Below are positions 1 to 43,003 of a stretch of 61,700 nt of DNA, one piece after another. The notes under the pieces are model-generated. The model was not told the origin of the DNA, did not search any database, and saw nothing but the letters and a program-made list of their open reading frames with translations. The stretch spans positions 1 through 61,700 of IMG/VR virus record IMGVR_UViG_3300021131_000006, one strand, 5' to 3'. This stretch comes from a virus. A program made the position numbers and the translations under genes. The first letter of the stretch is position 1. Each line of letters begins with the position of its first letter.

Positions 1-1422
1 GCAAATCCTAATGCTCTTACAATTGGAACGGGATTGTCAGGAACTTCTTATACAGGTTCAGGAGCAGTTACAATTGCTATAGATTCAACAGTAGCTACAC
101 TAACTGGAGTTCAGACTCTTACAAATAAAACATTATCTTCAGCAGTTGCAACAGGTGGAATTACACATAATGGTTCTACATCTGGAACAATTGTTCTTCA
201 GGCATCCGCAGTTGCTGGTTCAAATACATTAACACTTCCAGCAGCAACAGATACTCTTGTTGGTAAGGCTACAACAGATACCCTTACAAATAAAACATTA
301 GATACTGCAGGAACTGGTAACGTTCTTAAAATTAATGGTACTCAGGTATCAGGAATTACAGGTACTGGTTCATCAGTAGTACTTTCAGCATCACCAACCT
401 TGACTGGTACATTATCTGCAGCAGCAATATCAACTACTGGTGATGTAACAGTTGGCGGTAATTTGACGGTTAATGGTACAACTACCACAATTAACTCAAC
501 TACTCTTAATACAACAGAACAGGTTCTTGTAATATCTAATGCAGCCTCTCCAACAGATGTAACTGCAAATGGTGCGGGAATTACAATTAAGGGTACTACA
601 GATAAGACAATTAAATGGTACTCATCAACAGGTGCTGTAACATTCTCTGAAAACATTGATCTTGCTTCAGGTAAGACATATAAGATTAATGGAACTACTG
701 TCCTTTCCGCTACAGCGGTTGGTGGACAAACAATTCCAGCATCAGCAATTGTTGGTTTGACCGATACACAGACTTTGACTAATAAGACAATATCTGGTTC
801 ATCAAATACATTGTCAAATATTGCTAACTCAAGCTTAACAAACTCAACAATATCTGGTGTAGCACTTGGATCAAATCTAAATACCTTAACATTAGGTTCA
901 GGATTAACTGGAACATCTTATAATGGTTCTGCTGGAGTAACGGCAGCTATTGATACAACAGTAGTTGCTACTTTGACTGGAAGCCAAACTCTTACAAATA
1001 AGACTTTGACATCTCCATCACTTGGAACTCCTACTGTAACTGGAACAATTACTTTATCTTCATCTGGAGCTACATTCTCAGATTCTACAGTTCAAACAAC
1101 TGCTGGTGTCCCATCAGTTACACCAGTAGACAATCTTGTTTTTGCTACTGGAACTGTAAATCTAGCATCTGGTTATAAAGATTATATGTTTAAGGTTGGA
1201 GCAAGCGTTACTGTAACCTTACAGCAAGATTCTGCAGCTACTTATCCAGTTGGAACTTCAATTGATTTTTATGCAAATGGAACTGGAGCAGCATTTGCTG
1301 CTGGAACTGGTGTAACAATTATAAATACTCCAGGACTTAAGTTTAGAGCAGTTGGATCAGTTGCAACAGCAATGAAAGTAGCAGCAAATACATGGTTAGT
1401 CTTTGGAGACTTGTCAGCATAA
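1..1422 (+). CDS. Tail fibre protein, 5'-truncated by window edge
   Basis: The reading frame is open from base 1, so the true start lies upstream of the window. The visible 473 residues are almost entirely Thr/Ser/Gly/Ala/Asn/Val. A phage-fibre repeat of the type TLTNKT(L/I) occurs four times (near bases 115, 283, 770 and 985), each in a longer unit that also contains a GLTGTSYNGS-like segment. Such repeats are known from tail fibre and other virion proteins and are expected to form beta-rich shafts. The last ~110 residues lack the repeat and may be a tip or trimerisation domain. The next tail gene starts 18 nt downstream, so the two are probably co-transcribed. The structural role is well supported; which fibre it is cannot be told. 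Confidence 0.75.
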   Translation, partial: ANPNALTIGTGLSGTSYTGSGAVTIAIDSTVATLTGVQTLTNKTLSSAVATGGITHNGSTSGTIVLQASAVAGSNTLTLPAATDTLVGKATTDTLTNKTLDTAGTGNVLKINGTQVSGITGTGSSVVLSASPTLTGTLSAAAISTTGDVTVGGNLTVNGTTTTINSTTLNTTEQVLVISNAASPTDVTANGAGITIKGTTDKTIKWYSSTGAVTFSENIDLASGKTYKINGTTVLSATAVGGQTIPASAIVGLTDTQTLTNKTISGSSNTLSNIANSSLTNSTISGVALGSNLNTLTLGSGLTGTSYNGSAGVTAAIDTTVVATLTGSQTLTNKTLTSPSLGTPTVTGTITLSSSGATFSDSTVQTTAGVPSVTPVDNLVFATGTVNLASGYKDYMFKVGASVTVTLQQDSAATYPVGTSIDFYANGTGAAFAAGTGVTIINTPGLKFRAVGSVATAMKVAANTWLVFGDLSA

Positions 1423-1440: not shown

Positions 1441-2457
1441 ATGTCAAAACAAGCAGGTAGATTCTCGGAATCAGCAAATGATTTCTTAAACCCACAAGCG
1501 GTTACTGGTTTAACCGCCACAGATGTAGGAACAGATAGACCATATTTAGCGACATCTAACACTACATCGGCTGCTTCTGCAGCGGGAACTGGAGGAGCAG
1601 TAAACCTTTCTTGGACATTACCAGGCACTTCTTCAGCTGCAACATCTTATACAATTACTACTACTCCAGCGACATATACTGTAACAACAGGAACAGCAAC
1701 TACATCTTATACATTTGAAGGATTAGCTCCTGGTTCTTATACATTTACAGTAATTGCTACAAATGCTGCAGGCCCATCAAATCCTACAACATCCACTTCA
1801 ACACCTGTAACAACAAACCCCTCCGCCCCAACTTCAGTTGGAGGTACATCTCCTTCAGCACTTTCTGATACGGTAACTTGGTCTGCCCCTGCAAATAATG
1901 GAGGCAAATCAATAACTTCTTATACAATAGTTGCTTCTGCCCCAGATGGAACTACATACCCAAATGTTACTTCTCCTTGGTCTCATTCAGAACCAGATGG
2001 AAGTACCATAACATTTTCAGTTTATGCATTAAATGCAAATTCAGTAACTACTAAATCTCCAGCAGGAACGGTTTCTGTTGTTGTTACTCCGCCATTCTTC
2101 CCGCCATTCTTCCCACCGTTCTTCCCGCCGTTCTTCCCACCATACTTCCCATTCTTCCCACCATTCTTCCCACCATTCTTCCCATACTTCCCGTTCTTCC
2201 CACCATTCTTCCCGCCGTTCTTCCCACCATTCTTCCCGCCATATTTCCCATTCTTCCCGCCGTTCTTCCCACCATATTTCCCGTACTTCCCGTTTTTCCC
2301 ACCATATTTCCCACCACCATTCTTCCCACCATACTTTGCTGCACCATTCTTCCCACCGTTTTTCCCGCCATCCTTCCCACCATCTTTCTGCGCTTCATGC
2401 AGTGGAGTTAGATGCCTAAGACCAGCTTATTGCAGTTGTGGAGGATGTGTTGTTTGA
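1441..2457 (+). CDS. Tail protein: fibronectin-III-like domains, FFPP tract, Cys-rich C-terminus
   Basis: 338 residues, ATG preceded by AGGAGA about 8 nt upstream. Residues ~50-125 and ~130-215 look like two fibronectin type III-like beta-sandwich domains (TSYTITTTP, SYTFTVIATNAAGPSNP; then TVTWSAPANNGG). Residues 217-316 are a pure Phe/Pro/Tyr tract of the form (FFPP)n. The protein ends in a 22-residue tail with seven cysteines (CASC, CLRPAYC, CSCGGC). It has no signal peptide and follows a tail fibre gene, so a virion-surface role is likely. The gene lies directly upstream of the oxygenase cassette, whose members are prolyl-4-hydroxylase-like, making this protein an obvious candidate substrate (inference). 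Its tract resembles two tracts in the large tail protein at 38484-42455. Confidence 0.7.
   Translation: MSKQAGRFSESANDFLNPQAVTGLTATDVGTDRPYLATSNTTSAASAAGTGGAVNLSWTLPGTSSAATSYTITTTPATYTVTTGTATTSYTFEGLAPGSYTFTVIATNAAGPSNPTTSTSTPVTTNPSAPTSVGGTSPSALSDTVTWSAPANNGGKSITSYTIVASAPDGTTYPNVTSPWSHSEPDGSTITFSVYALNANSVTTKSPAGTVSVVVTPPFFPPFFPPFFPPFFPPYFPFFPPFFPPFFPYFPFFPPFFPPFFPPFFPPYFPFFPPFFPPYFPYFPFFPPYFPPPFFPPYFAAPFFPPFFPPSFPPSFCASCSGVRCLRPAYCSCGGCVV
2089..2388 (+). repeat. FFPP tract 1 (300 bp, 100 codons)
   Basis: Irregular tandem repeats of a 12-bp unit TTCTTCCCACCA encode F-F-P-P. Some units read YFPP, PYF or PSF, and shortened F-F-P units are frequent. Phenylalanine is written almost only as TTC, although TTT is common in the rest of the genome, and proline as CCA/CCG. 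The tract is therefore locally rich in C and creates false long ORFs on other frames and on the - strand. Confidence 0.95.
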
Positions 2458-2467
2458 TGTTAATAAT

Positions 2468-2500
2468 GGTAGAGGGTATAATCTATATATGCCCTCTATC
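2468..2500 (+). promoter_or_regulatory. Inverted repeat with a TATAAT box in its loop
   Basis: GGTAGAGGG (2468-2476) pairs with CCCTCTATC (2492-2500), 9 bp with one G-T. The 15-nt loop holds TATAAT (2477-2482). It lies in the 77-bp gap between the FFPP gene and the accessory cassette. It could be a terminator for the upstream gene (the U-run after it is poor), or the promoter of the cassette with an operator-like palindrome around the -10. The same layout recurs at 47396-47436. Confidence 0.5.
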
Positions 2501-2534
2501 ATAGTTATAAAAATAATTAATAAAAGGATAAAAA

Positions 2535-2990
2535 ATGAAATTTGATAAATATGCACTTGCTACTGAAATAGAAGAAAATTCTAATTTATTTGAAGTTTTT
2601 GAAATTATAATATTTGAATCTGATTCAGAAATTTCAAAAAGATGGAAATCTGGTACATCTAATCAAAATGCAATTGCAATGAATGTAACTGGTTTAGATA
2701 ATCTTACATTTGATTCTTTTTGGGACGGACAAAAATTTAATCTTCCAGACAATAAAGAAAGAGTTGTCGGTCACGATGTATTTGATATATGGGGTCATGA
2801 AGAAAATTCATTAAGTCTTGCATTTTTATCAAAAAATAAAATTTTTGGTAGAGTAACAAAACATAATGATATTGAAAAATTTGAAGCTGCTTTTTCAAAT
2901 AAAGTTTTAGTTATAGATGCATCTGATGTAAAATTATTTGGTTTAGGTTATATTTGGGATGGATCAAGTTTTAGTTTGCCAAAAGATTAA
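2535..2990 (+). CDS. Hypothetical protein, first gene of accessory cassette
   Basis: 151 residues, ATG after AAAGGATA. I recognise no family. The protein is acidic with alternating predicted helices and strands, no membrane segment and no cysteine cluster. A segment of the type FDSFWDGQKFNLPDN (near residue 60) is echoed at the C-terminus by YIWDGSSFSLPKD, so it may contain two copies of a small WDG..F.LP module. It sits between the FFPP tail gene and the CGCFM protein. The second FFPP gene is likewise followed by one small unknown gene and then a CGCFM gene (42478, 42746), although the two unknowns do not obviously align. Confidence 0.6.
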   Translation: MKFDKYALATEIEENSNLFEVFEIIIFESDSEISKRWKSGTSNQNAIAMNVTGLDNLTFDSFWDGQKFNLPDNKERVVGHDVFDIWGHEENSLSLAFLSKNKIFGRVTKHNDIEKFEAAFSNKVLVIDASDVKLFGLGYIWDGSSFSLPKD

Positions 2991-3002
2991 AAAAAGGTTA
3001 AT

Positions 3003-3242
3003 ATGTCAAAGTGGAATGATTGGAAAAAAAATGTTGGAGATTCACGTCCTTGGCATCTTTTAGATCCAAACAAAATAGTAAAAGATTCAGAAATTGCAAA
3101 AAATAGATTAGAAATATGCATTTCATGTCCAAGATTAGTTTCAATAACAAAACAATGTTTAGAATGCGGATGTTTCATGTCTGCTAAAGTTCATCTTTCA
3201 AATGCAGAATGCCCATTAAATAAATGGGGAAAGTCCGAGTAA
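3003..3242 (+). CDS. Small CxxC/CxxCGCFM cysteine-motif protein
   Basis: 79 residues. The C-terminal half has CISC, then 12 residues, then CLECGCFM, an SAKVHL segment and a final CPLNKW. Five regularly spaced cysteines suggest a zinc ribbon or metal/disulfide knuckle; the pattern resembles DUF6171-type small proteins (recalled, not searched). The N-terminal half carries a SRPWHLLDP segment. A clear paralogue with the same architecture (PWDVLNP, then CKTC...CKKCGCFM...CPIGKW) is at 42746-43003. Both copies lie two genes downstream of an FFPP-tract tail gene, which suggests a job linked to those proteins (inference). Confidence 0.75.
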   Translation: MSKWNDWKKNVGDSRPWHLLDPNKIVKDSEIAKNRLEICISCPRLVSITKQCLECGCFMSAKVHLSNAECPLNKWGKSE

Positions 3243-3266
3243 GTTTTAATAGATAAAGGATTTAAA

Positions 3267-3974
3267 ATGAATGTTTATGATGAAAATGAAAACCCTTGGT
3301 TTACTAAAGATAGATCAGAAACAGCCTCAAACAGAGTGTCACGATTAATTAATAATGATATTTTAATTAGTAATCCTGGTTTAGGTTTAAATATTTATCA
3401 TAATGTTTTTTCTTTAGAAGACTCAAAAAGATATATTGATACTCTTGAATTAAATTTATCAAGTAATAAAAAATATACATGGTCCGAAGCGCAAGTTACA
3501 AATTCAACTTCCCCAATTAAAAAAGCAAGAGATTGTGTAGATTTTAAATATAAACAAGAAAATCTTGGTCCGAGAGATGAATTTAATTCTGATTTAATTG
3601 ATTTGCATGAAGAAATATATCAAAAATTAAAAACTTGTATAGATGATTATGCTCATTATTGGGGCATTAATGTTGTATATTATGAAGCTTTTAATTTTGT
3701 AAAATATGAAGGTGAAGGTACTCATTTTAATATTCATGCTGATCATGGCCCAGCTTATAATTGTACTGTTTCTGCAGTTATTTATATTAATGATGATTAT
3801 GAAGGCGGGGAAATTAAGTTTCCAAGATTAGATAATTTTGTACATACTCCAAAAGTAGGGGATATTGCTATTTTCCCATCAAATTATATTTATGAACATG
3901 CTTCTTTGCCTATAAAATCTGGCACAAAGTATTGTGTTGTTGTTATGACCGATATAAATACATTAAGTCATTAA
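3267..3974 (+). CDS. 2OG-Fe(II) oxygenase, prolyl-4-hydroxylase type (copy 1 of 8)
   Basis: 235 residues, ATG after AAAGGA. The C-terminal double-stranded beta-helix region has the complete active-site set: H157-x-D159 (in HADHG) and distal H211 as iron ligands, and K221 in SGTKY as the 2-oxoglutarate anchor. The family hallmark YINDDYEGGE lies between them, followed by PKVGDIAIFPS. Family members couple decarboxylation of 2-oxoglutarate to hydroxylation of a substrate, classically proline in peptides (Pfam 2OG-FeII_Oxy_3 type). It is closest in sequence to copy 2 (4765), with which it shares YEAFNFVKY/WEAFNFIKY and the DHG..YNCTVS segment. No signal peptide, so it acts in the cytoplasm. Substrate unknown; FFPP tails are the leading candidate. 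Confidence 0.88.
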   Translation: MNVYDENENPWFTKDRSETASNRVSRLINNDILISNPGLGLNIYHNVFSLEDSKRYIDTLELNLSSNKKYTWSEAQVTNSTSPIKKARDCVDFKYKQENLGPRDEFNSDLIDLHEEIYQKLKTCIDDYAHYWGINVVYYEAFNFVKYEGEGTHFNIHADHGPAYNCTVSAVIYINDDYEGGEIKFPRLDNFVHTPKVGDIAIFPSNYIYEHASLPIKSGTKYCVVVMTDINTLSH

Positions 3975-3977
3975 TCT

Positions 3978-4757
3978 ATGAAATTAACAAATAACATTAT
4001 TAAATTTAAATCTTTTAGGCCATGGCTTAATAAAGATAGCATTTCAGCCCCCAGCCCAACACAAAGTTTAATACCAGATTGGTATAAAGAGGCAGATAGG
4101 TTTGCAAAAAATCCTTATAATGGAGAATATTATAAAGCTCCAAAAACAGTTTGCCCTTTTCCCAAAGAAGGAACTACAGATGATTATGGGATGATACCAA
4201 CGTGGAAAGCTTGTCCAGCTATTTTAGATGCTTTTACAACTGGATATGTTTTAAAAACTCCTTGCGATATAACATTTTTTAAAAACAGTCAAAATAAAAT
4301 TGATGTAAAGATAGAAGATAATCAGTATAAAGATTTTTGTACAGCAAGGCCACCAATGCCACAATTTGAACACCCCAAGGGTTATTATAAAGATCATTTT
4401 GCTTGGCAACCAGATTGGGGATTGGAAGTTCCAGAAGGTTATAGTTGTTTATACATGACACCGATGAACAGATTTGATTTACCATTTTTAAATACAACTG
4501 GTATTGTAGATAATGATAAAGTTCATTTATCTGGAACCTTTCCATTTTTTATAATAGATGACTGGGAAGGCACTATTCCAGCGGGAACTCCTTATATGCA
4601 AATTCTTCCATTTAAGAGAGAAAATTGGCAAAGTGAAATAGAAATACTGTCAACAAATACTATTTATGATAAAATGATGGATAATATGAAAATGTACCGC
4701 AAACCAGATGGCGGGATTTACAGAAAAAAAGTCTGGACTAAAAGAGAGTATAGTTAG
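3978..4757 (+). CDS. Unknown cassette protein, possibly DUF6065-like
   Basis: 259 residues, rich in Trp, Tyr and Pro. Recognisable segments are FRPWLNKDS and LIPDWYKEA at the N-terminus (residues ~10-35) and, near residues 190-220, FPFFIIDDWEGTIPAGTPYMQILPFKRENW. The GTP..QILPF segment resembles GTPIATFIPLS in the gene at 5435, so the two may be distant relatives. I tentatively associate both with DUF6065-type proteins of unknown function. The gene starts 3 nt after oxygenase copy 1 and is followed 7 nt later by oxygenase copy 2, so it belongs to the same operon. No catalytic motif can be assigned. It may bind or present the substrate of the neighbouring hydroxylases (speculative). Confidence 0.6.
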   Translation: MKLTNNIIKFKSFRPWLNKDSISAPSPTQSLIPDWYKEADRFAKNPYNGEYYKAPKTVCPFPKEGTTDDYGMIPTWKACPAILDAFTTGYVLKTPCDITFFKNSQNKIDVKIEDNQYKDFCTARPPMPQFEHPKGYYKDHFAWQPDWGLEVPEGYSCLYMTPMNRFDLPFLNTTGIVDNDKVHLSGTFPFFIIDDWEGTIPAGTPYMQILPFKRENWQSEIEILSTNTIYDKMMDNMKMYRKPDGGIYRKKVWTKREYS

Positions 4758-4764
4758 GAATAAA

Positions 4765-5442
4765 ATGCAAACTTGGACTGAAAAAGAAATGCTAGGCAAT
4801 GGTATTGTTTGTTATAGAAACGTTATTAAGCCAGAATTTGATGTTATTAATAAATTAGAAAATATATTGGGCAAAGCAGCACCTTATGGTCAGATATCTG
4901 ATGATGGTAAAAGATATCATTGGTACCCAGCATATGTAGGATATCAGCAGCTAATGCCAGAATATCGTGATTGCTATGATTTTAAATTTAAAAAAACAGA
5001 CATTCAGGCAGACTCAACAGAAGATTCATTACGCTTACAAGATATATGGCAAGATGTTTATGATGCTCAATTTGCAGCGGTTGAAGATTATCGAAGCATG
5101 TTTAACATTATGGAATTAAAATATTGGGAAGCTTTTAACTTTATTAAGTATGGTCCAGGACAGCATTTCCAAGAACACCATGATCATGGTTTTTCTTATA
5201 ATTGCACAGTATCGCTTGTTGCATATATTAATGATGACTATGAAGGCGGGGAGCTTTATTTTAGACTACAAGAACTAAATATTAAACCTAAAGCTGGAGA
5301 TCTATATATATTCCCTTCAAACTATATGTATCCACATAGAGCTATGCCAGTAACATCTGGAACAAAATATTCAATTGTTACCATGCTAGACTATAATAAA
5401 AAATTCCATACGCCAGAAATGTATATGCCAGATAATGACTAA
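4765..5442 (+). CDS. 2OG-Fe(II) oxygenase, prolyl-4-hydroxylase type (copy 2 of 8)
   Basis: 225 residues from ATG 4765. An in-frame ATG at 4708 would overlap the upstream gene by 50 nt, whereas ATG 4765 has TAGGAA just upstream. Iron ligands H138-x-D140 (in EHHDHG) and H191, with K201 in SGTKY for 2-oxoglutarate. The motif YINDDYEGGELYF is present. It is the nearest paralogue of copy 1 and probably arose by duplication, with the unknown gene 3978 now between them. The 3' end overlaps the next gene by 8 nt, implying translational coupling. Confidence 0.88.
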   Translation: MQTWTEKEMLGNGIVCYRNVIKPEFDVINKLENILGKAAPYGQISDDGKRYHWYPAYVGYQQLMPEYRDCYDFKFKKTDIQADSTEDSLRLQDIWQDVYDAQFAAVEDYRSMFNIMELKYWEAFNFIKYGPGQHFQEHHDHGFSYNCTVSLVAYINDDYEGGELYFRLQELNIKPKAGDLYIFPSNYMYPHRAMPVTSGTKYSIVTMLDYNKKFHTPEMYMPDND

Positions 5443-6145
5443 AGTTTTAGCATATAAGATTCCAGGTCATCCAGTTAAAATAGAACAGTCAAGAGTTCAA
5501 AGAGACTGGATGGATGAAACTGCGGGCAAACATGTTTATAAATGTTTTCCATTAAGTTTAGCAAATCAAATAGGCTGGACAATTTCATTTACTGAAGATA
5601 TTAAATTTATTTGGGACGGAGTAGTAGATACAACCTCAGACCATGTAAATATACTTCAAGGAGAAAGATTAACAGATACAAATAGAGCCAATGCAACTAT
5701 AAGTTTTCACAGCGGAATTCAATTTAAAACAGATGAAAATATGTCTATACTTTGCATACCTCCAGCAAATCTTTTTATTGATGGTTTGATCCCATACACC
5801 TCTGTAATATCAACTTCTTTTTTGGACGAACCTTATCCAATAGCATGGAGAATTACAAAACCAAATTTTGAATTTACTTTAAAAGCAGGAACACCGATTG
5901 CTACTTTTATTCCATTATCTTTAACTAATTTATCTGAAATTGAATTAGATGTTTATGATAAAATTTTTGCAGAAGATCATTACGAATTTAGAGAAGAAAG
6001 AGGAAAAGCTTGGGCAGAAATTACTGCTAAAGGAGAATTTACTAATTTTTATAGAAATGCCGTTGATCACAGAGGCAATTCAATAGGAAAACACGAAGTA
6101 AAGTCTTTAACTATGAAAGTTAATGATTTTACTTCATCTAGTTAG
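5435..6145 (+). CDS. Unknown cassette protein, DUF6065-like (tentative)
   Basis: 236 residues. Segments that look conserved are YKCFPLSLANQIGWTISF (residues ~35-52), an ILCIPPANLFIDG stretch, and LKAGTPIATFIPLSL (residues ~155-170). From memory this resembles DUF6065, a family of unknown function; this was not searched. A similar GTP..IPF motif in the gene at 3978 suggests the cassette holds two divergent members. It is sandwiched between oxygenase copies 2 and 3. A substrate-recognition or cupin-like role is conceivable, but no ligand residues can be assigned. Confidence 0.6.
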   Translation: MTKVLAYKIPGHPVKIEQSRVQRDWMDETAGKHVYKCFPLSLANQIGWTISFTEDIKFIWDGVVDTTSDHVNILQGERLTDTNRANATISFHSGIQFKTDENMSILCIPPANLFIDGLIPYTSVISTSFLDEPYPIAWRITKPNFEFTLKAGTPIATFIPLSLTNLSEIELDVYDKIFAEDHYEFREERGKAWAEITAKGEFTNFYRNAVDHRGNSIGKHEVKSLTMKVNDFTSSS

Positions 6146-6146
6146 G

Positions 6147-6155
6147 TGGTATAAT
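6147..6155 (+). promoter_or_regulatory. Extended -10 promoter TGGTATAAT (leaderless start)
   Basis: TGGTATAAT ends exactly 6 nt before the ATG at 6162, so transcription would begin at or next to the start codon. No -35 TTGACA-like box is visible. It offers an internal promoter for the downstream part of the oxygenase cassette. Part of it overlaps a possible SD (AGGTGG, 6144-6149). Confidence 0.5.
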
Positions 6156-6161
6156 AATAAT

Positions 6162-6839
6162 ATGGAAATAACAAATAAAGACATTCATAACCATGCTCCA
6201 AAATCAATAACTCCTTCTGGATTTTTTGGAAATGATAAATCTATGATTGTTGAATTAGAAAATTTTATGACTGAAGAAGAAATTAATTTTTTAGATAATG
6301 CAGCAAGAAATATAAATATTTGGGATATTACAGAAGATCATGTAAATGAAAATGGAACTGTAATTTATGATTCTAGCTATTGGAAAGACCGTGTAGCCAG
6401 TTCTCCATCTTTAAATAAAAATGATCCAAGAATTGTACCAGTAATAGTTGGTTTATTTGAAAGACTACAGCCAGTCATAGAAAATTTTTATAATGTAAAA
6501 GCCACCCCAACTGGACAAACTATAGTTAGATGGCTCCCAGGACAATTTCAAAATCCTCATGCAGATAAAGAATTGTGGGATGGTCCAGATGCTGGAAAAC
6601 CAAATGATTTTCCTTGGTACGATCTTTCAAGTTTGTTTTATTTAAACGATGACTATGAAGGCGGAGAATTGTATTTTCCTAATCAAGAAATTAAATTTAA
6701 ACCAAAAAAAGGTGCAGCTTATTTTTTCCCAGGAGATAAAAATTTTATACACGGAGTTACAGAAGTAAAAAGCGGAATTAGATATACCTGTCCATTTTTT
6801 TGGAATATAACAGAGCATACAGGAGATAAAAAGCCATAA
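6162..6839 (+). CDS. 2OG-Fe(II) oxygenase, prolyl-4-hydroxylase type (copy 3 of 8)
   Basis: 225 residues. ATG 6162 is preferred over ATG 6123, which lies inside the previous gene; 6162 follows the TGGTATAAT box and AGGTGG. Ligands H133-x-D135 (in NPHADKE) and H197 (in FIHGV), 2-oxoglutarate anchor R207 in SGIRY. The hallmark YLNDDYEGGELYFP and PKKGAAYFFPG are present. The N-terminal helix region (FMTEEEINFLDNAARN) is the usual support-helix region of this family. It differs strongly from copies 1 and 2, so these are old, diverged paralogues. The stop overlaps the next start (TAATG). Confidence 0.88.
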   Translation: MEITNKDIHNHAPKSITPSGFFGNDKSMIVELENFMTEEEINFLDNAARNINIWDITEDHVNENGTVIYDSSYWKDRVASSPSLNKNDPRIVPVIVGLFERLQPVIENFYNVKATPTGQTIVRWLPGQFQNPHADKELWDGPDAGKPNDFPWYDLSSLFYLNDDYEGGELYFPNQEIKFKPKKGAAYFFPGDKNFIHGVTEVKSGIRYTCPFFWNITEHTGDKKP

Positions 6840-7519
6840 TGCTAAGCGTGTTAAAAGAAAAATTATTAAAAAACAATTTTATAGTAGAAGAGCCAATAGA
6901 CAACGTGCTTGTTGTAAAAAACTATTTGCTTGATTCTGAAATTAAATATTTTAATGATTTTATTAATAACACGTCTGAAGATGAATGGTTGATAGAGTAT
7001 ATGTCAAATTTAAAACCTTTCTGTCTAGAAAAGTTTGGAAGAGATGATGTAGAAAATTTAGTTGCAGAAGGTTTATTTGAAATAACTCAAAATTGGGAAG
7101 ATAAAAATTTAAATATTTCTAAGCAATCAATATCTGCTACCATAACAGAAAGAATAAATAATTTTATATATCAAATTGAACCAGATATTGCCTGCAATGG
7201 ATTTGGTAGCATTCAAAGGATGCAAGAAGGCGTAGAGCTAAAATGTCATACGGATCAAGATACAGATCCCTCTATAAGATATGCTGCAATTATTTATTTA
7301 AATAATAATTACAATGATGGTCAATTATTTTTTAAAAATAAAAATTTAGAATTAAAACCAGAACCTGGTTCTTTATTATTATTTCCAGGCAATGAAGATT
7401 ATCATCATGGAGTCAGAAAAGTTAGTTCTGGTCCAATTAGATATGTAATTGTTGGATTTATTAAAAAAATAAATTATTATGATTATGACAGGAAAGGCAA
7501 TAAAATAAATGAAAAATAA
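6839..7519 (+). CDS. 2OG-Fe(II) oxygenase, prolyl-4-hydroxylase type (copy 4 of 8)
   Basis: 226 residues, starting in a TAATG overlap with copy 3. Ligands H137-x-D139 (in CHTDQD) and H190 (in YHHGV), anchor R201 in SGPIRY. The usual NDDYEGG is degenerate here (YLNNNYNDGQLFF), but every iron ligand is kept, so activity is plausible. The N-terminus (VEEPIDNVLVVKNYLLDSEIKYF) matches the general N-terminal layout of the other copies. It overlaps the next oxygenase by 11 nt. Confidence 0.85.
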   Translation: MLSVLKEKLLKNNFIVEEPIDNVLVVKNYLLDSEIKYFNDFINNTSEDEWLIEYMSNLKPFCLEKFGRDDVENLVAEGLFEITQNWEDKNLNISKQSISATITERINNFIYQIEPDIACNGFGSIQRMQEGVELKCHTDQDTDPSIRYAAIIYLNNNYNDGQLFFKNKNLELKPEPGSLLLFPGNEDYHHGVRKVSSGPIRYVIVGFIKKINYYDYDRKGNKINEK

Positions 7520-8417
7520 TTTTGATGTAGAAGAAATATACCCAAATATTCTTGTTTATAGCAATGTTTTTGAAGATAATGATAAGATGTATGAAATTGT
7601 TAAAAGCATAGGAAAAAGCGAAGAAGAAATTTTTGAGCCATGGAAAGATTGGTATACTTTTGGTGAAAAAATAGAAGAGTTTGGAATTTATTTTAATAAA
7701 ACAAAAAATGAAATGGAAATATCTAAAGATATTAATCCAATAAATAAAACTCAAGAAGATCAAAAATATTTTATTACAGAATTAGTAAAAGCTTTTCATT
7801 TAGTAAATAATGATTATATTAAAAGGTTTGATATAGATTTTGATCTAACATCTGTATCAAAAACAAAAAACCCAGTTGATCAAAATGAAGCAGATAATTT
7901 TAAAACTTTTCCAGAAGAAGTTCCAACATGGAGATGGACAGGCCCAAGCTTATGTAAATATTTTGATAATGCTGGAAATGGTTCAGATCTTTCTATGAGT
8001 TATCATTCTGATTACATAAGAGAGCCAATAATAACTCCTGGATATAAATTTGCTATAACTACAACTTCTTATATAAATGATGATTACGACGGCGGTGGAT
8101 TGGATTTTGTTATTGATAGTAAGCTTATTGGGTATAAACCTAAAAAAGGTGATTTTGTTGTTTTCCCATCAGGCCATCCAGATATTTTAACTGAAAACGG
8201 TAAAGTTTATTTACATGGAGTAAAAAATCTTTATAATGGAGAAAAATTTTTTACAAGAATGTATTGGCAAAAATTTCATTTGGGTCAAGATGAGTGGTTT
8301 GAAAATGAAGAAAAATATGGGAAGGCAGAGTGGGAAAGAATGCAAGAAAGTATAATGCAAGATTATAGAGAATCTGTGCAAATGAAAGATATTAGTAAGT
8401 GTGTGAGGATAAGATGA
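7509..8417 (+). CDS. 2OG-Fe(II) oxygenase, larger variant (copy 5 of 8)
   Basis: 302 residues, the longest of the eight. Ligands H166-x-D168 (in YHSDY) and H236 (in YLHGV), anchor R250. The YINDDYDGGGLDF hallmark and KPKKGDFVVFPSG follow. The N-terminal ~90 residues carry an insertion relative to the shorter copies, and the C-terminus ends in a charged helix (residues ~262-302). The insertion may widen substrate choice (inference). It overlaps both neighbours. Confidence 0.86.
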   Translation: MKNNFDVEEIYPNILVYSNVFEDNDKMYEIVKSIGKSEEEIFEPWKDWYTFGEKIEEFGIYFNKTKNEMEISKDINPINKTQEDQKYFITELVKAFHLVNNDYIKRFDIDFDLTSVSKTKNPVDQNEADNFKTFPEEVPTWRWTGPSLCKYFDNAGNGSDLSMSYHSDYIREPIITPGYKFAITTTSYINDDYDGGGLDFVIDSKLIGYKPKKGDFVVFPSGHPDILTENGKVYLHGVKNLYNGEKFFTRMYWQKFHLGQDEWFENEEKYGKAEWERMQESIMQDYRESVQMKDISKCVRIR

Positions 8418-9169
8418 TCTTAAATAAAAAAAATAGATTAACAAAAGATATACTTGTTTATGAAGATTTTTTAACAAAAGAAGAATGTGATTCTTTAATA
8501 CAAGTTTTAGAAAAACAAGCAAGCAATGAAAAATTATCTTGGACTCCTATATCTTTTTATGAATCTTATTCTTCAGTTCTACCGCAAGATGGTGATCCAG
8601 AGCTAGCAGAATTTAATTTAAAACCAACTGTTTTTTCTGATATTAAAAAAGGTATCATTGAAGCAATTGCAGCAGTTCATGACATTGAACCAAATAAAGT
8701 AGTTCAAATTGGATACCATACTCAAAAATGGGAACCAGGAGCATATGCCAGGCTTCATTCTGATAATACAGATGAACATGGCAATACTGGGCCTTTTGAA
8801 AGAAGTAGATACGCTGGATTTTTATACTTAAATGATAATTTTGAGGGTGGTCTGCTTCAGTTCCCTTCTCATGATATTAGTTTAAAGCCAAAAGTAGGAA
8901 TGCTTGCTGTATTTGCAGGCGGGTTTGAAAATATGCATGAGGTAACTTTAATAGAATCAGGAACAAGATACACACTTGGTTCTTTCTGGGATGATAGAGA
9001 AGAAGATGCTTACCCACAAGAAACTAGAGATGCTTGGGCAGAAGAAATGAAAAAGATCAGAGAAGCTCAAGCTGAAGAAAAAAAAGAATGGCAAGAACTT
9101 CTTAAAGAAGGTTTTAAGTTAGATAAAGATGGAAACAAATATAAAATAGAGGATATATTAAATGGATAA
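8414..9169 (+). CDS. 2OG-Fe(II) oxygenase, prolyl-4-hydroxylase type (copy 6 of 8)
   Basis: 251 residues from ATG 8414, which forms an ATGA overlap with the previous stop and has GAGGAT just upstream; a GTG at 8399 is less likely. Ligands H115-x-D117 (in LHSDN) and H175 (in MHEV), anchor R185 in SGTRY. YLNDNFEGGLLQFP and LKPKVGMLAVFAGG are typical of the family. The last ~60 residues form a highly charged helix rich in Glu/Lys, probably coiled coil. The N-terminal half (DILVYEDFLTKEECDSLI) closely matches bacterial prolyl hydroxylase-like proteins. Confidence 0.88.
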   Translation: MILNKKNRLTKDILVYEDFLTKEECDSLIQVLEKQASNEKLSWTPISFYESYSSVLPQDGDPELAEFNLKPTVFSDIKKGIIEAIAAVHDIEPNKVVQIGYHTQKWEPGAYARLHSDNTDEHGNTGPFERSRYAGFLYLNDNFEGGLLQFPSHDISLKPKVGMLAVFAGGFENMHEVTLIESGTRYTLGSFWDDREEDAYPQETRDAWAEEMKKIREAQAEEKKEWQELLKEGFKLDKDGNKYKIEDILNG

Positions 9170-9878
9170 AAAAGTATTGGATGAAAAGATTTATTATTAT
9201 GAAAATGTAATGCCAAATTTTGATAATTTTATTAATACATTGAAAGAGTTAGATGACATTTCTTCTTCAAATGAAGATAATTTATGGTACCCATGGACAT
9301 CTTCAAATGACAAAGATTTTATTTATGGAGAAACAAAATCATTTGATTTAAATAGAATTAATCAATTGCAAGATCCTTTAAAAGAAAAAATGTCATATGT
9401 ATATAATTCTGTAATAGATGCACTTTATAATGTATCTAAAGATTATGCTGAATCTTTAGGTGATTATGATGAACCACGCCTATTCCCTACTTTTAATATA
9501 AAAAAATATTATTCAGGAACTTCAATGGGATCGCATTTTGATCAATTAGATGGAGATCAAACATTAAGGTATTCTTTAGTTATGTATCTAAATGATGATT
9601 GCGAAGGCGGGGAAATTTCTTTCAGTATTGTAGATTATGATGGAGTTAATCAAAAACCTTCTACACCAATGGATTTTGAAGAAGCAAAGGATAAGAATGC
9701 TTTTGATGTAGGAATTAAACCAAAAGCAAATAGTATTATTATTTTTCCAGCTTCTGCTCCATATTTTCACACTGCTCATACTGTTAAATTTGGTTTTAAA
9801 TATATGGTTCCAGGACATTGGATACATAATGATATGGAGTTTAATAAAGCACCTCAGAGCTCAATGCTGTCGGAATAG
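9162..9878 (+). CDS. 2OG-Fe(II) oxygenase, prolyl-4-hydroxylase type (copy 7 of 8)
   Basis: 238 residues, overlapping copy 6 by 8 nt. Ligands H125-x-D127 (in SHFDQ) and H203; the alternative H206 is less likely because only H203 has the +10 spacing to the anchor K213 in FKY that other copies show. YLNDDCEGGEISF is followed by an insertion of ~30 residues before the second half of the beta-helix (IKPKANSIIIFPAS). The aromatic N-terminal half has no recognised domain. Confidence 0.86.
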   Translation: MDKKVLDEKIYYYENVMPNFDNFINTLKELDDISSSNEDNLWYPWTSSNDKDFIYGETKSFDLNRINQLQDPLKEKMSYVYNSVIDALYNVSKDYAESLGDYDEPRLFPTFNIKKYYSGTSMGSHFDQLDGDQTLRYSLVMYLNDDCEGGEISFSIVDYDGVNQKPSTPMDFEEAKDKNAFDVGIKPKANSIIIFPASAPYFHTAHTVKFGFKYMVPGHWIHNDMEFNKAPQSSMLSE

Positions 9879-9881
9879 TAT

Positions 9882-10451
9882 ATGATAATTAATAAAATAT
9901 ATGATAATATATATGAAATAGAAAATTTCATAACAGATGAAGAATGTCAAGAAATATTAGAAATAGCTTATTTATCAAAAGAAGAAGATTGGCACGTTGA
10001 TAAAGATGAGTACAACACTTCTGAATTCTGGAGCGATAAGTCTTTATATTTATATACAAATCCTCCAGAAGTAATTAATAATATTAATGATAGGGTCAGC
10101 ACCTTTTTTAAATCATTTGATCATATAACAAAAATAAATGCAATTCATAGATTTTCTAAAGATGTTGCCATGGGTAGACATAAAGATAATTATACAAAAA
10201 TGGGAAATATATCTTCTGCATACGGAGTTGTTCTTTATTATAATGATAATTATCTTGGGGGAGAAATTGAATATCCAGATTTAAATATAAAGTTAAAGCC
10301 CAAAGCAAAATCTTTAATAATTCATGCTGGGGACATATTACACGGAACAACACCAGTACAAAGTGATAGCATAAGATACTTTTCAACTTCTTTTATAAGA
10401 GAAAAAGATGGTACAAAAGTAAAATTAAACCCTGAGATATTTGGAGGATAG
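9882..10451 (+). CDS. 2OG-Fe(II) oxygenase, minimal variant (copy 8 of 8)
   Basis: 189 residues, the shortest copy. Ligands H100-x-D102 (in RHKDN) and H154 (in LHGTTPV), anchor R165 in SIRY. The motif YYNDNYLGGEIEYP and LKPKAKSLIIHAG are present. The N-terminus IYEIENFITDEECQEIL is the classic start of this family. It ends the oxygenase run, and the following gene begins 1 nt after its stop. Confidence 0.88.
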   Translation: MIINKIYDNIYEIENFITDEECQEILEIAYLSKEEDWHVDKDEYNTSEFWSDKSLYLYTNPPEVINNINDRVSTFFKSFDHITKINAIHRFSKDVAMGRHKDNYTKMGNISSAYGVVLYYNDNYLGGEIEYPDLNIKLKPKAKSLIIHAGDILHGTTPVQSDSIRYFSTSFIREKDGTKVKLNPEIFGG

Positions 10452-10452
10452 A

Positions 10453-11046
10453 ATGGTTAGTGGGTATCAGCCAACAAGCAGTCAAGAAGAATTTGTATTA
10501 AATATATTAAATAATAAAAAAGAAGGTTATTTTGTTGAATTGGGTGCTGCGCATTCAAAAAATGGAAGTAATACTTATAGGCTTGAAAATGAATTTGACT
10601 GGAAAGGCGTATCTTTTGAGATAGTACCAGAACTTCATAAAGAAGTTTCTGAAAATAGAAAAAACCCTTGCATACTAGGCGATGCAACAAAATTTGATTA
10701 TATTAAATATTTTGAAGAAAATAATTTTCCTAATCAGATAGATTACCTTCAATTAGATATTGATGCTGGCTATGATCAAAACGGTAGGCCAGTAGGAAGT
10801 GCGTATACTACATTGCATGGATTGATTGCTGTGCCTTTAAATAAGTATAGATTTTCTATTATAACATTTGAGCATGATGCTAATATGTATTGGAAAAATA
10901 CGTCAATTCGAGATATGCAGAGAGAAATATTAGATTCTCTTGGATACTCTTTAGTTGTTAGAGAAATTCATGAAGACTGGTGGGTTGATCCAAATGTTAT
11001 TCCTCTTGAAAAATATCGTGAGTATTTTAAGTGGAATACACTTTGA
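10453..11046 (+). CDS. FkbM-like SAM-dependent methyltransferase
   Basis: 197 residues from ATG 10453, with GGAGGA immediately upstream. The SAM-binding motif I is GYFVELGAAHSKNGSNT (residues ~24-40), followed by an acidic strand end (SFEIVPE), ILGDATKFD and YLQLDIDAG, the order seen in FkbM-type methyltransferases. These O-methylate sugars or small molecules; some act on glycans. Its position at the end of the oxygenase run suggests it acts on the same pathway, for example methylating a hydroxyl or an attached sugar (inference). The stop overlaps the next start (TTGA). Confidence 0.75.
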   Translation: MVSGYQPTSSQEEFVLNILNNKKEGYFVELGAAHSKNGSNTYRLENEFDWKGVSFEIVPELHKEVSENRKNPCILGDATKFDYIKYFEENNFPNQIDYLQLDIDAGYDQNGRPVGSAYTTLHGLIAVPLNKYRFSIITFEHDANMYWKNTSIRDMQREILDSLGYSLVVREIHEDWWVDPNVIPLEKYREYFKWNTL

Positions 11047-11717
11047 TTCAAAAAACAGCCATAGTAACTGGAGCAAGTAGAGGAGTAGGAAAAGCTACTG
11101 TCAAATTGCTAGAGCAAAATAACTATAAGGTTATTGCATTATCTAGAAATTTAGAAGCAATGAAAGAGTTGGAATCTGACAATGTTGAAATTAATCAAGT
11201 AGATATAACAGATTCTAATCAAATAAAAGAATTTTTTACTAAATATAAAAATATTTCTTTAGATCTTTTAGTTAATAATGCTGGGGGTGGGGCTAGTCCT
11301 ACTTTTATTATTAATGAAACTATGGAAAATTTTAGAATGGCTTATGATATAAATGTATCAGGCCCCATGTACCTGTCTCAACTATTTGTTCCGTGCATGA
11401 AAAAATCTGATTCACCAACAATTATTTTTGTTACATCTTTATGTGGAAAAATACCTTTTAGGGGCGGCGGGAACTATTCAAATGCAAAGCGTGGTCAGAT
11501 GGCACTAATAGATACAATGCGTATGGAATTTCCAGAATATGGAATTAAGATAAGTGAGATATGTCCTGGTTCTATAGATACAGATGTAATAAAAAAAGAT
11601 AATGCGATATCTGCCGAAGATATGGCGGAGGCAATAAGATGGGTGGCATCTATGCCAAAAACTGTTAATATTAATCATATTGAAATAAGTCATATATATA
11701 ACGGAAAGTTTATTTAA
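11043..11717 (+). CDS. Short-chain dehydrogenase/reductase (SDR)
   Basis: 224 residues from TTG 11043, which overlaps the previous stop; GTG 11031 is an alternative. Classical SDR features are complete: cofactor loop TGASRGVG (residues 9-16), DI at the adenine site, N78-N-A-G, and catalytic S132, Y145 and K149 (YSNAK). The PG motif follows (CPGSIDTDV). SDRs use NAD(P)H to oxidise or reduce alcohols and ketones. A phage SDR beside an FkbM protein and eight hydroxylases points to modification of a sugar or hydroxylated residue. Host acquisition is likely. Confidence 0.85.
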   Translation: MIQKTAIVTGASRGVGKATVKLLEQNNYKVIALSRNLEAMKELESDNVEINQVDITDSNQIKEFFTKYKNISLDLLVNNAGGGASPTFIINETMENFRMAYDINVSGPMYLSQLFVPCMKKSDSPTIIFVTSLCGKIPFRGGGNYSNAKRGQMALIDTMRMEFPEYGIKISEICPGSIDTDVIKKDNAISAEDMAEAIRWVASMPKTVNINHIEISHIYNGKFI

Positions 11718-38483: not shown

Positions 38484-41400
38484 ATGCCATTATACGTAAA
38501 GACTAGCGGAAGCGACCCAAGTGATCCAAATGCATCCCCATCTAGCGTATGGAATAAAATAAAAACTGTTTCCGTAAAAACTGCAACCGCTGTTTGGAAA
38601 GATGTAAAGGTTATTTATGTAAAAACTATTGCTGGAGTAGGCGGATGGAGAAGATTTTTTCCGACTACCGTCCCATATGCAGATAATTACCCGTATTTTT
38701 TAGATGCACAAAAACACATACCAGCTTGGATAGTTATAGGAACTATGCCAAATCCAAGTGCTCCCGCAGGAACTGGAAACGTTTATGTTCAAAATAAATT
38801 ACTTGGATATGTGGGGGACTGGGACCCTAACGGATATACAATAAGTAATTTTGATTGGTATGTAAACGGATTTACTGACCCAACCACCAGTCTGGGCGGG
38901 GTAACATTAAATAGTTCAACATATACAAGTTCTCCATTAACTATATCAAATACAAATTCAACTGATCCAATTTTATCTAATGATAAAACTTCTACACAAG
39001 TTCCTCAAATATTATTAGATTTTACATATGATGATTTATATGTTTCATTTACAGTTCAAGCAAATACCACAACAAAAGATACAGATGGAATTCATTATAT
39101 ATACGGAGAAGATTCAAGTGATGAAGGTTCTGCAAGAATTTATGTTGTTACTAACCCGCCAGTAAATATATCTAAACAGATCAGTTCATCTAATGGGTAT
39201 GGAAGTGGATCCATTTTATCTTATTCATCTTTATGGCAGATGACAGATGGCTACATGCCAAAAACATATACATATCAGTGGTTTAGTGCTGCTGTAAATT
39301 CTTATACAACTTTAAGTCAATTAACTCAAAATGGAAACCCTTTATCAAGCACCACGGTATCTCAGCCAATAACAAGTGCAGAAGTAGGTAAATATATATA
39401 TTGTGTAGAAACAGCTTCTAATGGAGGATCAAAATTTTTTAATGCTGGAGTTGGCACCTCAGCAGTAGCAGTATCTTCACAAAAAATTTCTACAGGAGTT
39501 ACCCAATTAACGCCCCCGACATTAGTTGCAAAATCCCCAACAGGTGTTATAAAAACAAGCGGAATAACAGCTGGTGACATTCTTTATTCTACACCAGGAA
39601 CGTATAAAGATAACAAAGGCTCTGTTGTAACTGTTTTTCAATGGGCAAAAACTTCATCAGGCGCACAAGATATTTATCCATATTCTTATCTTGGAGGGCA
39701 ATCTGGAGGGTACGAGGGTTATGATTCATCATCAACGCATACCGTTTCTGCTGACGAAGCTGGCGCACAAGATTATTTTATAGTAAGAGATCTTGTTCAA
39801 GGAAATGATTTAAAGTATTACGATTTCTTTTCTAATTTATATCAAGTAGTGAACGCACCATTACCTGCGCCTACATTTGCTAATGTTCAAAGTGGATATA
39901 GCGACGGAAATCATGATCATGGTGATGGTTTTCAAGGAACAGTGAATAATTATAATTCTGGATATACATATACAGCAGAATTAATAAGCCATACCTCTAC
40001 ATTACCCACCCCTCCAATTTTTAATTGGCAAACTGTACCAATTTCATCTTCTCATTCTTGGGCTTTTTATGTTAGCAATATGTCACCAGGAAGTAGTGCC
40101 ACTTTTAAAATAACTGTTAGTGCAAATGGGTATAGTTCAAATTCAGCAAATGTAACTGGTACAGCTGTTTTTGCACCAGATCCATTTAATTATTATATAA
40201 CCGATACCACGCAAATACCAGATCAAAATCCCTATGTATCTTTAGTTGATTTGGGTAATAATACATTTCAAATTAAATGGAGTAAGCAATCATCTTCTAC
40301 TAATGTAGGTTTTTGGTTTGCCCATTACGATGGAGTTGTTTATGGTACTACTTCGCCCTACACCTGGGCCTCTCAACAAAATAATTCTGAAGTTGTTTCA
40401 AGTCCTATCACATTTACTTCATCTGGAACTGAAAATCTCTACCTATCAACTCATAGTAAAGATCCAAATAAAGTTACATTAAGTGTAGATGCATCTGATC
40501 ATACAGATAGTTGGGTTGTTAGCTATACTATTAGTGGTTTAGCTTCAGGAACTGGCACATTTAATAATGTATTATATAAGTCTATGCCACAAGATATACT
40601 GGTTTACGAAGGAAATACAATAACAATAAATTCTATATATGCTCAAAATATATATTTTACAACATATGCCAGCAATAGTAATTCTAGTCAATCTGTAAAG
40701 CCAGAATATCAAATTGTTCAAACTTATGGCGGTGGAGAATTAGTAAATCATCCATATTATACTGGAACTTCAGAATGTAATCCACTTAATGGATCGTATG
40801 CAAAATTACCTTCAGTAACTGGACCACTTTACGATAAAGTTCCTGCAGATACAAATGTTCAAGTTTTTAATGGAAATTATGTAAAAACTGTATATAGATT
40901 TAGTGCACAAGAAGCTTTATCCGCTGCTACGAATTCTATCTGTTCAATACCTGGCTTAACCCCTTCACTTTCATCTCCTACACAAACTTCAGATGGTTTT
41001 ACATTTTCTCTTAGCAATTATGATGCAAATTATTCCTGGTCAATTAATACAAGTGCAGGAACATTGAGTCCATCAAGTGTTACTGGAAATAATACATTTA
41101 CCGTTTCTGGATTAAGTAATGGTCAGAGTGCAACAGTAACAGTTAGTACTTCTAGGGTAGGTTATACTAATGGTTCTGCATCCGTAACAGGTAATGGAAC
41201 AGTTACTTATTATGTTGGAACTTCAAATTGTAGTACTCAAAACAATTATTATATTTATGCTCCCTATGTAACTGGACCTTTTACAGGATCTTCGCTCCCA
41301 ACAGATACGCAATTTACAGGATCTCAATCAATAACAAAAACTGTATACAGATTAACTTCAGACGCTGCTTTATCAGCAGCAGCTAATTCTCTTTGTACAG

Positions 41401-42477: not shown

Positions 42478-42753
42478 ATGAAAACTATGGTAAAAGTTTA
42501 TGTTAAAGAAGATCCAGTTGGGACATTTACAATAATGGAAAATGCTACAGATTATTGGCAAAAATTTAAACAAGCTTGTTCATTAAATCCCACAGTCACA
42601 GAACTAGAATCTTCAAATGGATATTTGTTTAATTTTATAGTAGATAGTGATGTTAAAGCAGAAATTTTACTTGGAGAAGAGTCTTTACCTTTTGTTGCAG
42701 CCTTTAGAAGTAATCCGACATTTGAAGTAGTAGAGATACCAGATAATGACTGA
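42478..42753 (+). CDS. Small hypothetical protein after FFPP tail gene
   Basis: 91 residues, probably leaderless from ATG 42478; ATG 42487 is an alternative. Alternating beta/alpha pattern with MVKVYVKEDPVGTF at the start and FRSNPTFEVVEIP at the end; no family recognised. It occupies the same slot after an FFPP gene as the gene at 2535 and overlaps the CGCFM gene by 8 nt. Confidence 0.65.
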   Translation: MKTMVKVYVKEDPVGTFTIMENATDYWQKFKQACSLNPTVTELESSNGYLFNFIVDSDVKAEILLGEESLPFVAAFRSNPTFEVVEIPDND

Positions 42754-43003
42754 AGAAGAATTAACTCCTTGGGATATATATAAAAAAACGGGATCTTTGG
42801 ATAAGCCTAAAACAGCAAAACCTTGGGATGTATTAAATCCTAGTACAGAATGGCTATCTAAAGAAGAGTCTGATTTAAGATATGATATATGTAAAACTTG
42901 CCCAGAGCTAATGAATATAACAAATCAATGCAAAAAATGTGGTTGTTTTATGCCCGTAAAATCTAAAATAAAACATGCATCCTGCCCAATTGGCAAATGG
43001 TAA
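42746..43003 (+). CDS. Small CxxC/CxxCGCFM cysteine-motif protein (paralogue)
   Basis: 85 residues. N-terminal half with two PWD motifs (TPWDIYKKTG, KPWDVLNPS); C-terminal half with CKTC, CKKCGCFM and CPIGKW, five cysteines in the spacing seen in the 3003 gene. Likely a zinc or metal knuckle. Both copies lie two genes after an FFPP tail gene. A role with the Cys-rich tips of those proteins is possible (inference). Confidence 0.78.
   Translation: MTEEELTPWDIYKKTGSLDKPKTAKPWDVLNPSTEWLSKEESDLRYDICKTCPELMNITNQCKKCGCFMPVKSKIKHASCPIGKW

Follow-up and report, generated by a model that had tools for sequence, protein, structure and literature searches.

Arrays of prolyl-hydroxylase-like oxygenases are paired with proline-rich tail-type genes in bacteriophages and may modify the phage's own tail

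The window analysed here (a whole linear IMG/VR record, IMGVR_UViG_3300021131_000006, of 61,700 bases, from a virus of bacteria) carries near its beginning a cassette of eight 2-oxoglutarate/iron(II)-dependent (2OG-Fe(II)) oxygenases, spanning 3267-10451, behind a gene whose product ends in a phenylalanine- and proline-rich tract built on the unit FFPP. The subject of this work is the relation between these enzymes and the proline-rich tracts of the same phage. A preliminary description of the DNA had placed a cassette of prolyl 4-hydroxylase (P4H)-like enzymes just after a gene for a tract of about 50% proline, and had counted two more such tracts; both observations hold, since all eight enzymes match PF13640, P4H likeness is found for 4708-5442, and the two additional tracts both lie in the open reading frame (ORF) 38484-42455. 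Two small genes separate the tract gene from the cassette, which, together with the methyltransferase and short-chain dehydrogenase/reductase (SDR) genes that follow it, stops just short of the portal gene. The genes and features concerned are listed below.

1..1422, plus strand: fibre-like gene with TLTNKTL repeats, 5' end open (PHROG virion structural protein match, E 3e-13)
1441..2457, plus strand: fn3-domain tail-type protein with an FFPP tract at its C-terminus, presumed substrate (fn3 Pfam E 2e-11; phrog_31 tail fibre J, E 1e-7)
about 2089..2397, plus strand: FFPP/YFPP tract 1, about half proline (reading frame set by the fn3 domain)
3003..3242, plus strand: small zinc-ribbon-like protein, DUF6171 at sub-threshold level (Pfam)
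3267..3974, plus strand: 2OG-Fe(II) oxygenase 1 (PF13640)
3978..4757, plus strand: phrog_7084/DUF6065-related protein (PHROG; homologues in 18/28 cassettes)
4708..5442, plus strand: 2OG-Fe(II) oxygenase 2, core enzyme, P4H-like (PF13640)
5435..6145, plus strand: DUF6065 protein, predicted dUTPase-like fold (E 3.5e-33; in 27/28 oxygenase cassettes)
6123..6839, plus strand: 2OG-Fe(II) oxygenase 3, core enzyme, prolyl 3-hydroxylase (P3H)-like (PF13640)
6839..7519, plus strand: 2OG-Fe(II) oxygenase 4 (PF13640)
7509..8417, plus strand: 2OG-Fe(II) oxygenase 5 (PF13640)
8399..9169, plus strand: 2OG-Fe(II) oxygenase 6 (PF13640)
9162..9878, plus strand: 2OG-Fe(II) oxygenase 7 (PF13640)
9882..10451, plus strand: 2OG-Fe(II) oxygenase 8 (PF13640 above threshold), plus a sub-threshold Tet_JBP match
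10441..11046, plus strand: methyltransferase, FkbM-like at sub-threshold level (PF05050, E 0.088)
11031..11717, plus strand: SDR (E 1e-40)
38484..42455, plus strand: tail-region protein of 1323 amino acids at the end of the tail module, carrying FFPP tracts 2 and 3, second presumed substrate
about 41892..41981, plus strand: FFPP tract 2 (within ORF 38484-42455)
about 42195..42290, plus strand: FFPP tract 3 (within ORF 38484-42455)

The iron-binding triad HxD...H and the accompanying basic residue are readable by alignment in all eight window oxygenases (with the Lys or Arg at +10/+11 located by inspection), and in the 4708-5442 family H157-x-D159, H210 and K220 are invariant among 25 orthologues. 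Based on reciprocal best hits, orthologues are found across backbones in 29 records for 4708-5442 and in 27 for 6123-6839. Among the oxygenases, a structure was modelled for 4708-5442 alone (AlphaFold2, predicted local distance difference test score, pLDDT, 88), and the best VIA match of this model is 3gze, the algal P4H with (Ser-Pro)5 (Z 20.1, 2.1 Å, 173 residues), the next matches being other prolyl hydroxylases; P4H and PHD2 also stand at the head of its Foldseek list, and the double-stranded beta-helix of the model is that of prolyl hydroxylases. In profile searches, the nearest PDB sequence to 4708-5442 is the P4H of Bacillus anthracis (5e-7), and the nearest to 6123-6839 are human prolyl 3-hydroxylase 1 (2e-8) and then the B. 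anthracis P4H. The DUF6065 protein was considered as a disguised oxygenase and rejected, its model being dUTPase-like (Foldseek E 5e-4, VIA Z about 10) with no sign of the iron triad in it.

On the side of the presumed substrates, the 1441-2457 product (338 amino acids) has a short N-terminus, then the fn3 domain and then a Phe/Pro tract of about 103 residues, and gene order and domain type suggest that it is a virion component. Lys and Arg are absent from the Phe/Pro tracts, so that routine tryptic proteomics would be unable to resolve them and has a blind spot here. The FFPP unit is written in seven DNA spellings among its 28 copies in the window and, because these encode one peptide, conservation is at the protein level rather than that of a DNA repeat; the possibility of a DNA repeat without coding meaning was accordingly rejected. 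The pattern FFPPFFPPFFPP occurs in at least 120 stretches in IMG/VR, against 12 matches in 257 Gb of prokaryote genomes, and is therefore essentially viral, which also disposes of FFPP as a cellular feature. A collagen reading of the tract in 1441-2457 was rejected as well, glycine being absent and with it the Gly-X-Y pattern.

The FFPP tracts have some further peculiarities. Over all records, their Phe codons are TTC in 89% of cases (25% elsewhere) and their Pro codons CCG in 29% (8% elsewhere), a skew that perhaps reflects avoidance of slippage at runs of T. Several contigs terminate within FFPP tracts, which implies that assemblers break there. By eye, the tract proteins L414:4996-6270 (record G029) and L436:3762-5135 (record G026) have a Hint/intein-like C-terminus after the tract, which suggests self-cleavage; Pfam gave no support for this domain.

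In order to relate tracts to enzymes across viruses, three anchor sets were used: capsid relatives (blind to both tract and enzyme), FFPP-anchored records, and enzyme-anchored loci. The association tests use related sequences, some of which were selected on the tract, and the P values are for this reason optimistic. The strongest points are the enzyme-anchored set, the capsid-anchored set and the change of repeat behind one and the same orthologue. Among the 37 capsid-anchored records checked whole, the five with FFPP carry 7, 6, 8, 0 and 5 oxygenases, and 31 of the 32 without it have zero to two, the other being a 14.8-kb fragment with four (Fisher 4e-4 for FFPP against oxygenase count within the capsid family). 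Most FFPP-anchored records (23 of 27) have 4-11 PF13640 matches, and some have more by our own profile, up to 14. In full records, 22 of the 44 FFPP genes are followed by a same-strand oxygenase within 1 kb downstream, compared with a mean of 4.8 and a maximum of 14 in 20,000 random placements. The records with this adjacency make up, by shared genes, one large group that includes the window and another consisting of G027, G034, G036, G047 and G049, with G024, G031 and G037 outside both; those outside the window's group have 1-3 non-oxygenase genes in common with the window, and the pairing therefore recurs on distinct backbones. When loci are anchored on the enzymes, and thus not selected on the tract, a proline-rich gene lies within 3 kb upstream in 31/35, 33/37, 12/16 and 2/3 informative loci, most of the remainder having one 3.6-5.6 kb upstream. 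The preliminary description had suggested looking in related phages for a correlation between FFPP and the number of oxygenases, and such a correlation does exist, with real exceptions that are taken up below.

The pairing extends beyond FFPP. Most capsid relatives that have oxygenases and lack FFPP carry another proline tract on the upstream gene, namely (VLPPP)n, (VTPP)n, poly-Pro with GGGGT, (TP)n or FFAPPL, the last sitting on an fn3 gene homologous to that of the window. With equal search ranges in the capsid family, a tract is found in 8/12 oxygenase-positive loci vs 1/18 negative ones, or in 9/12 vs 1/18 (Fisher 1e-4) when one FFPP ORF cut by a contig end is counted. Anchoring on the divergent oxygenase of a non-FFPP relative recovered loci with (IIATPPP)n, YFPP and FFPP, and in the tract-less loci of this set the sequence ends close upstream of the first enzyme. 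Additionally, a solitary oxygenase of record G001, far from the main cassette, has orthologues at 13 other loci (at least 60% identity), and in 14/14 loci the enzyme is downstream of a proline-rich gene, behind six kinds of repeat (PVGPPTPPTPP, PVNPPSPP, SPPAS, FFAPPS, ATPP and AATPP) in which only proline is abundant throughout. An enzyme that holds its position beside a gene whose repeats have nothing but the prolines in common would be expected if proline were the residue acted on. FFPP as the sole correlate was therefore replaced by the proline-rich tract in general, other proline repeats being paired with oxygenases too, and the earlier proposal that the phage hydroxylates its own FFPP tail tracts survives this comparison except for its tie to FFPP, the common feature being proline. 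The number of oxygenases also differs with the type of repeat: aromatic tracts mostly have 4-9 (median 6, with six clusters of 1-3), vs 1-3 for non-aromatic tracts (P 8e-9, relatedness uncorrected), which suggests that the extra oxygenases of aromatic tracts serve extra residue types.

About a hundred related viral DNA stretches retain the pairing of enzyme and proline tract despite the change of repeat, and for this reason we consider that the enzymes very probably modify the phage's own tail, hydroxylation of its proline-rich tail tracts by the cassette being the best explanation (with a probability of roughly 0.75). The analysis itself establishes gene identity, conserved catalytic residues, the predicted fold of one core enzyme and the recurrent pairing across backbones and with changing repeats. 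From these we infer the reaction itself, the exact residues, the presence of the tract protein in the virion and the effect of the modification. In the mechanism that we propose, the prolyl-hydroxylase-type 2OG-Fe(II) oxygenases, encoded among structural genes, would hydroxylate prolines in the tract that ends the fn3 tail-type protein next to them, and would probably act also on the tracts of the large tail protein 38484-42455. The conserved heart of the system would be formed by the P4H-like 4708-5442, the P3H-like 6123-6839 and the DUF6065 protein, with the further oxygenases of FFPP-type tracts presumably acting elsewhere in the unit (on the second Pro, or on Phe/Tyr). By analogy with hydroxyproline in collagen and extensins, the likely effect would be to turn a very hydrophobic, aggregation-prone rod into a hydrated and stiff one. 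More tentatively, and as a possibility to which we give less than even odds, one may think of a multi-enzyme hydroxylation line for proline-rich tail rods, in which the repeat unit is free to change but its prolines are kept, the prolines are the task of one or two enzymes, another 3-6 oxygenases in FFPP phages take on the aromatics or the second Pro, and the outcome is an extensin-like rod, glycosylated in some relatives, of a kind that no bacteriophage is known to have.

Several observations weigh against hydroxylation of the phage's own tracts. The P4H fold is also used by enzymes with non-peptide substrates, and only 7 of the 38-39 solitary oxygenases have a proline-rich gene upstream, the majority being without one. 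T4-like cyanophages, whose oxygenases (phrog_61) belong to the same broad family and occur in many, mostly dispersed, copies per genome, carry 8-10 of them with neither FFPP nor an adjoining proline-rich tract in the two genomes checked. Record G012 has three oxygenases and no proline-rich tract, and such a tract is likewise absent from the distant homologues L596-598. FFPP is accompanied by one oxygenase in G030 and G031 and by none in G004 and G046, all of them possibly fragments. Finally, the P4H of the chlorella virus PBCV-1 is active on peptides, yet its virions gave no sign of hydroxyproline when this was looked for (PMC7019647).

Other explanations have to be weighed against this one. 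The oxygenases could target host proteins, such as EF-Tu or ribosomal proteins, the proline-rich gene being an unrelated neighbour. EF-Tu and ribosomal proteins are known targets of bacterial P4H-type enzymes, the P4H-type fold has known cellular roles, and the Pseudomonas P4H bound to EF-Tu is among the top Foldseek matches; nevertheless, we consider this explanation improbable, since it does not account for the absence of the enzymes from capsid relatives without a proline tract, for one orthologue standing behind six different proline repeats, or for an enzyme number that tracks repeat type. The cassette could also modify host-surface glycans or small molecules (for superinfection exclusion or receptor change) and travel with the tail genes as a host-range module. 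The SDR and the possible FkbM methyltransferase would suit such a role, as would the GlcNAc-transferase, sulfotransferase and carbamoyltransferase genes found at the same locus in relatives, but oxygenase-free relatives retain the tail-to-portal locus without proline tracts (one of them with its own PF11397 gene) and the core enzymes resemble peptide prolyl hydroxylases, making this, too, an improbable reading.

We regard as very unlikely that recombination concentrates at the FFPP DNA repeat and swaps tail modules there, with the oxygenases as passengers: the frequent termination of contigs within the tracts and the codon skew to TTC and CCG would agree with it, whereas the several DNA spellings with fixed amino acids, and a pairing that holds with repeats of unrelated DNA (TP, VTPP, IIATPPP), would not. 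That some of the enzymes act on DNA or nucleotides in the manner of Tet/JBP oxygenases, with an accidental link to the tail, has hardly any likelihood in our view; the match of 9882-10451 to the Tet_JBP family, which speaks for it, misses the family cut-off (25.2 bits vs 34.9), while the same protein matches PF13640 above threshold and the core enzymes have prolyl and lysyl hydroxylases as their neighbours in both fold and sequence.

Viruses with hydroxylases for their own fibrous protein are known among giant viruses, so that the new elements of the proposed system would be its occurrence in bacteriophages and its arrays of enzymes. Mimivirus has its own collagens together with a collagen-modifying 2OG oxygenase and glycosyltransferase (PMC9546862); there, a giant virus that infects amoebae hydroxylates lysines of a Gly-X-Y collagen, whereas here we deal with phages, prolyl-type enzymes and a tract without Gly-X-Y. 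The PBCV-1 enzyme vCPH (PDB 5c5t; Eriksson et al. 1999) comes from an algal virus, and an array of paralogues beside a substrate is not reported for it. The bacterial P4Hs (B. anthracis 3itq and 5hv0; Pseudomonas 4iw3, on EF-Tu) are the best solved sequence and fold neighbours of 4708-5442, but they are cellular genes with about 16-20% identity and have no link to a phage tail repeat. In Baltic Sea viruses, prolyl 4-hydroxylase (P4HA) is among the most abundant viral "auxiliary metabolic genes" and its viral use "remains cryptic" (PMC9301287), the sole substrate idea of that paper being a possible tail-fibre collagen; according to a 2012 paper on collagens of prophages, the enzymes required are missing from bacteria and viruses (PMC3368898). 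In the literature, FFPPFFPP was not found in any paper and, judged by titles and abstracts, none of the papers listed on hydroxyproline in phages seems to describe it from a phage virion. The present analysis proposes a concrete neighbouring substrate for a class of cryptic viral prolyl-hydroxylase-like genes; if the proposal is true, post-translational hydroxylation of a phage's own tail would be established, and such genes would shift from host metabolism to virion maturation.

Regarding the phage itself, positions 2145-61700 of the window are 100% identical to one end of record G064 (IMGVR_UViG_3300000439_000009, 106,853 bases), and the opposite end of G064 matches window positions 1-85; the two records are the same phage, and the overlaps at both ends indicate a genome of about 109 kb that is probably circular. 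Its gene products include a PF04860 portal, an HK97-type capsid protein, a tape measure, DnaB, primase, PolIII alpha and RecA, and the part of G064 outside the window adds one GT1-type gene and one collagen-like protein. No close cultured relatives were found in INPHARED, where all matches of the one core enzyme queried are below 60% identity (best about 28-40%).

The suggestion that the tracts are perhaps also glycosylated has no direct support in this phage, neither PF11397, which we take to be the Gnt1/GT60 family, nor PF00535 having a match in the window or in its twin G064. Glycosylation is only hinted at, as a lead for three relatives: in G002 a PF11397 GlcNAc-transferase has the FFPP-type gene on one side and the first oxygenase on the other, and a PF11397 protein lies between an oxygenase and an NYP-repeat tail-type gene in G006 or a VTPP tail-type gene in G009. 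The GT60 enzyme Gnt1, from the Skp1 pathway, acts specifically on hydroxyproline acceptors (PMC6939170). As a general partner of the cassettes PF11397 was rejected, since it occurs in 12 of 77 records and two of those 12 lack an oxygenase. Locus L515 (G061), which has no oxygenase, has, close to the corresponding position, a PF11397 GlcNAc-transferase and a gene with collagen-like GPT repeats, perhaps indicating Thr glycosylation in place of Pro hydroxylation.

Concerning the remaining genes of the cassette, the SDR named in the preliminary description is confirmed and occurs in eight cassettes, and the FkbM likeness of the methyltransferase is weak; genes related to the latter are present in five other records, the twin G064 among these. 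The zinc-ribbon-like DUF6171 proteins at 3003-3242 and 42746-43003 each lie downstream of an FFPP gene, with one small gene between, and homologues near an oxygenase or a proline-rich gene are also present in L494 (G010), L495 (G009) and L497 (G053). On other backbones, the cassettes of G024, G034, G036, G047 and G049 have in common a family of glutathione-peroxidase-domain genes, and a TauD-type dioxygenase family is present in those of G036 and G037.

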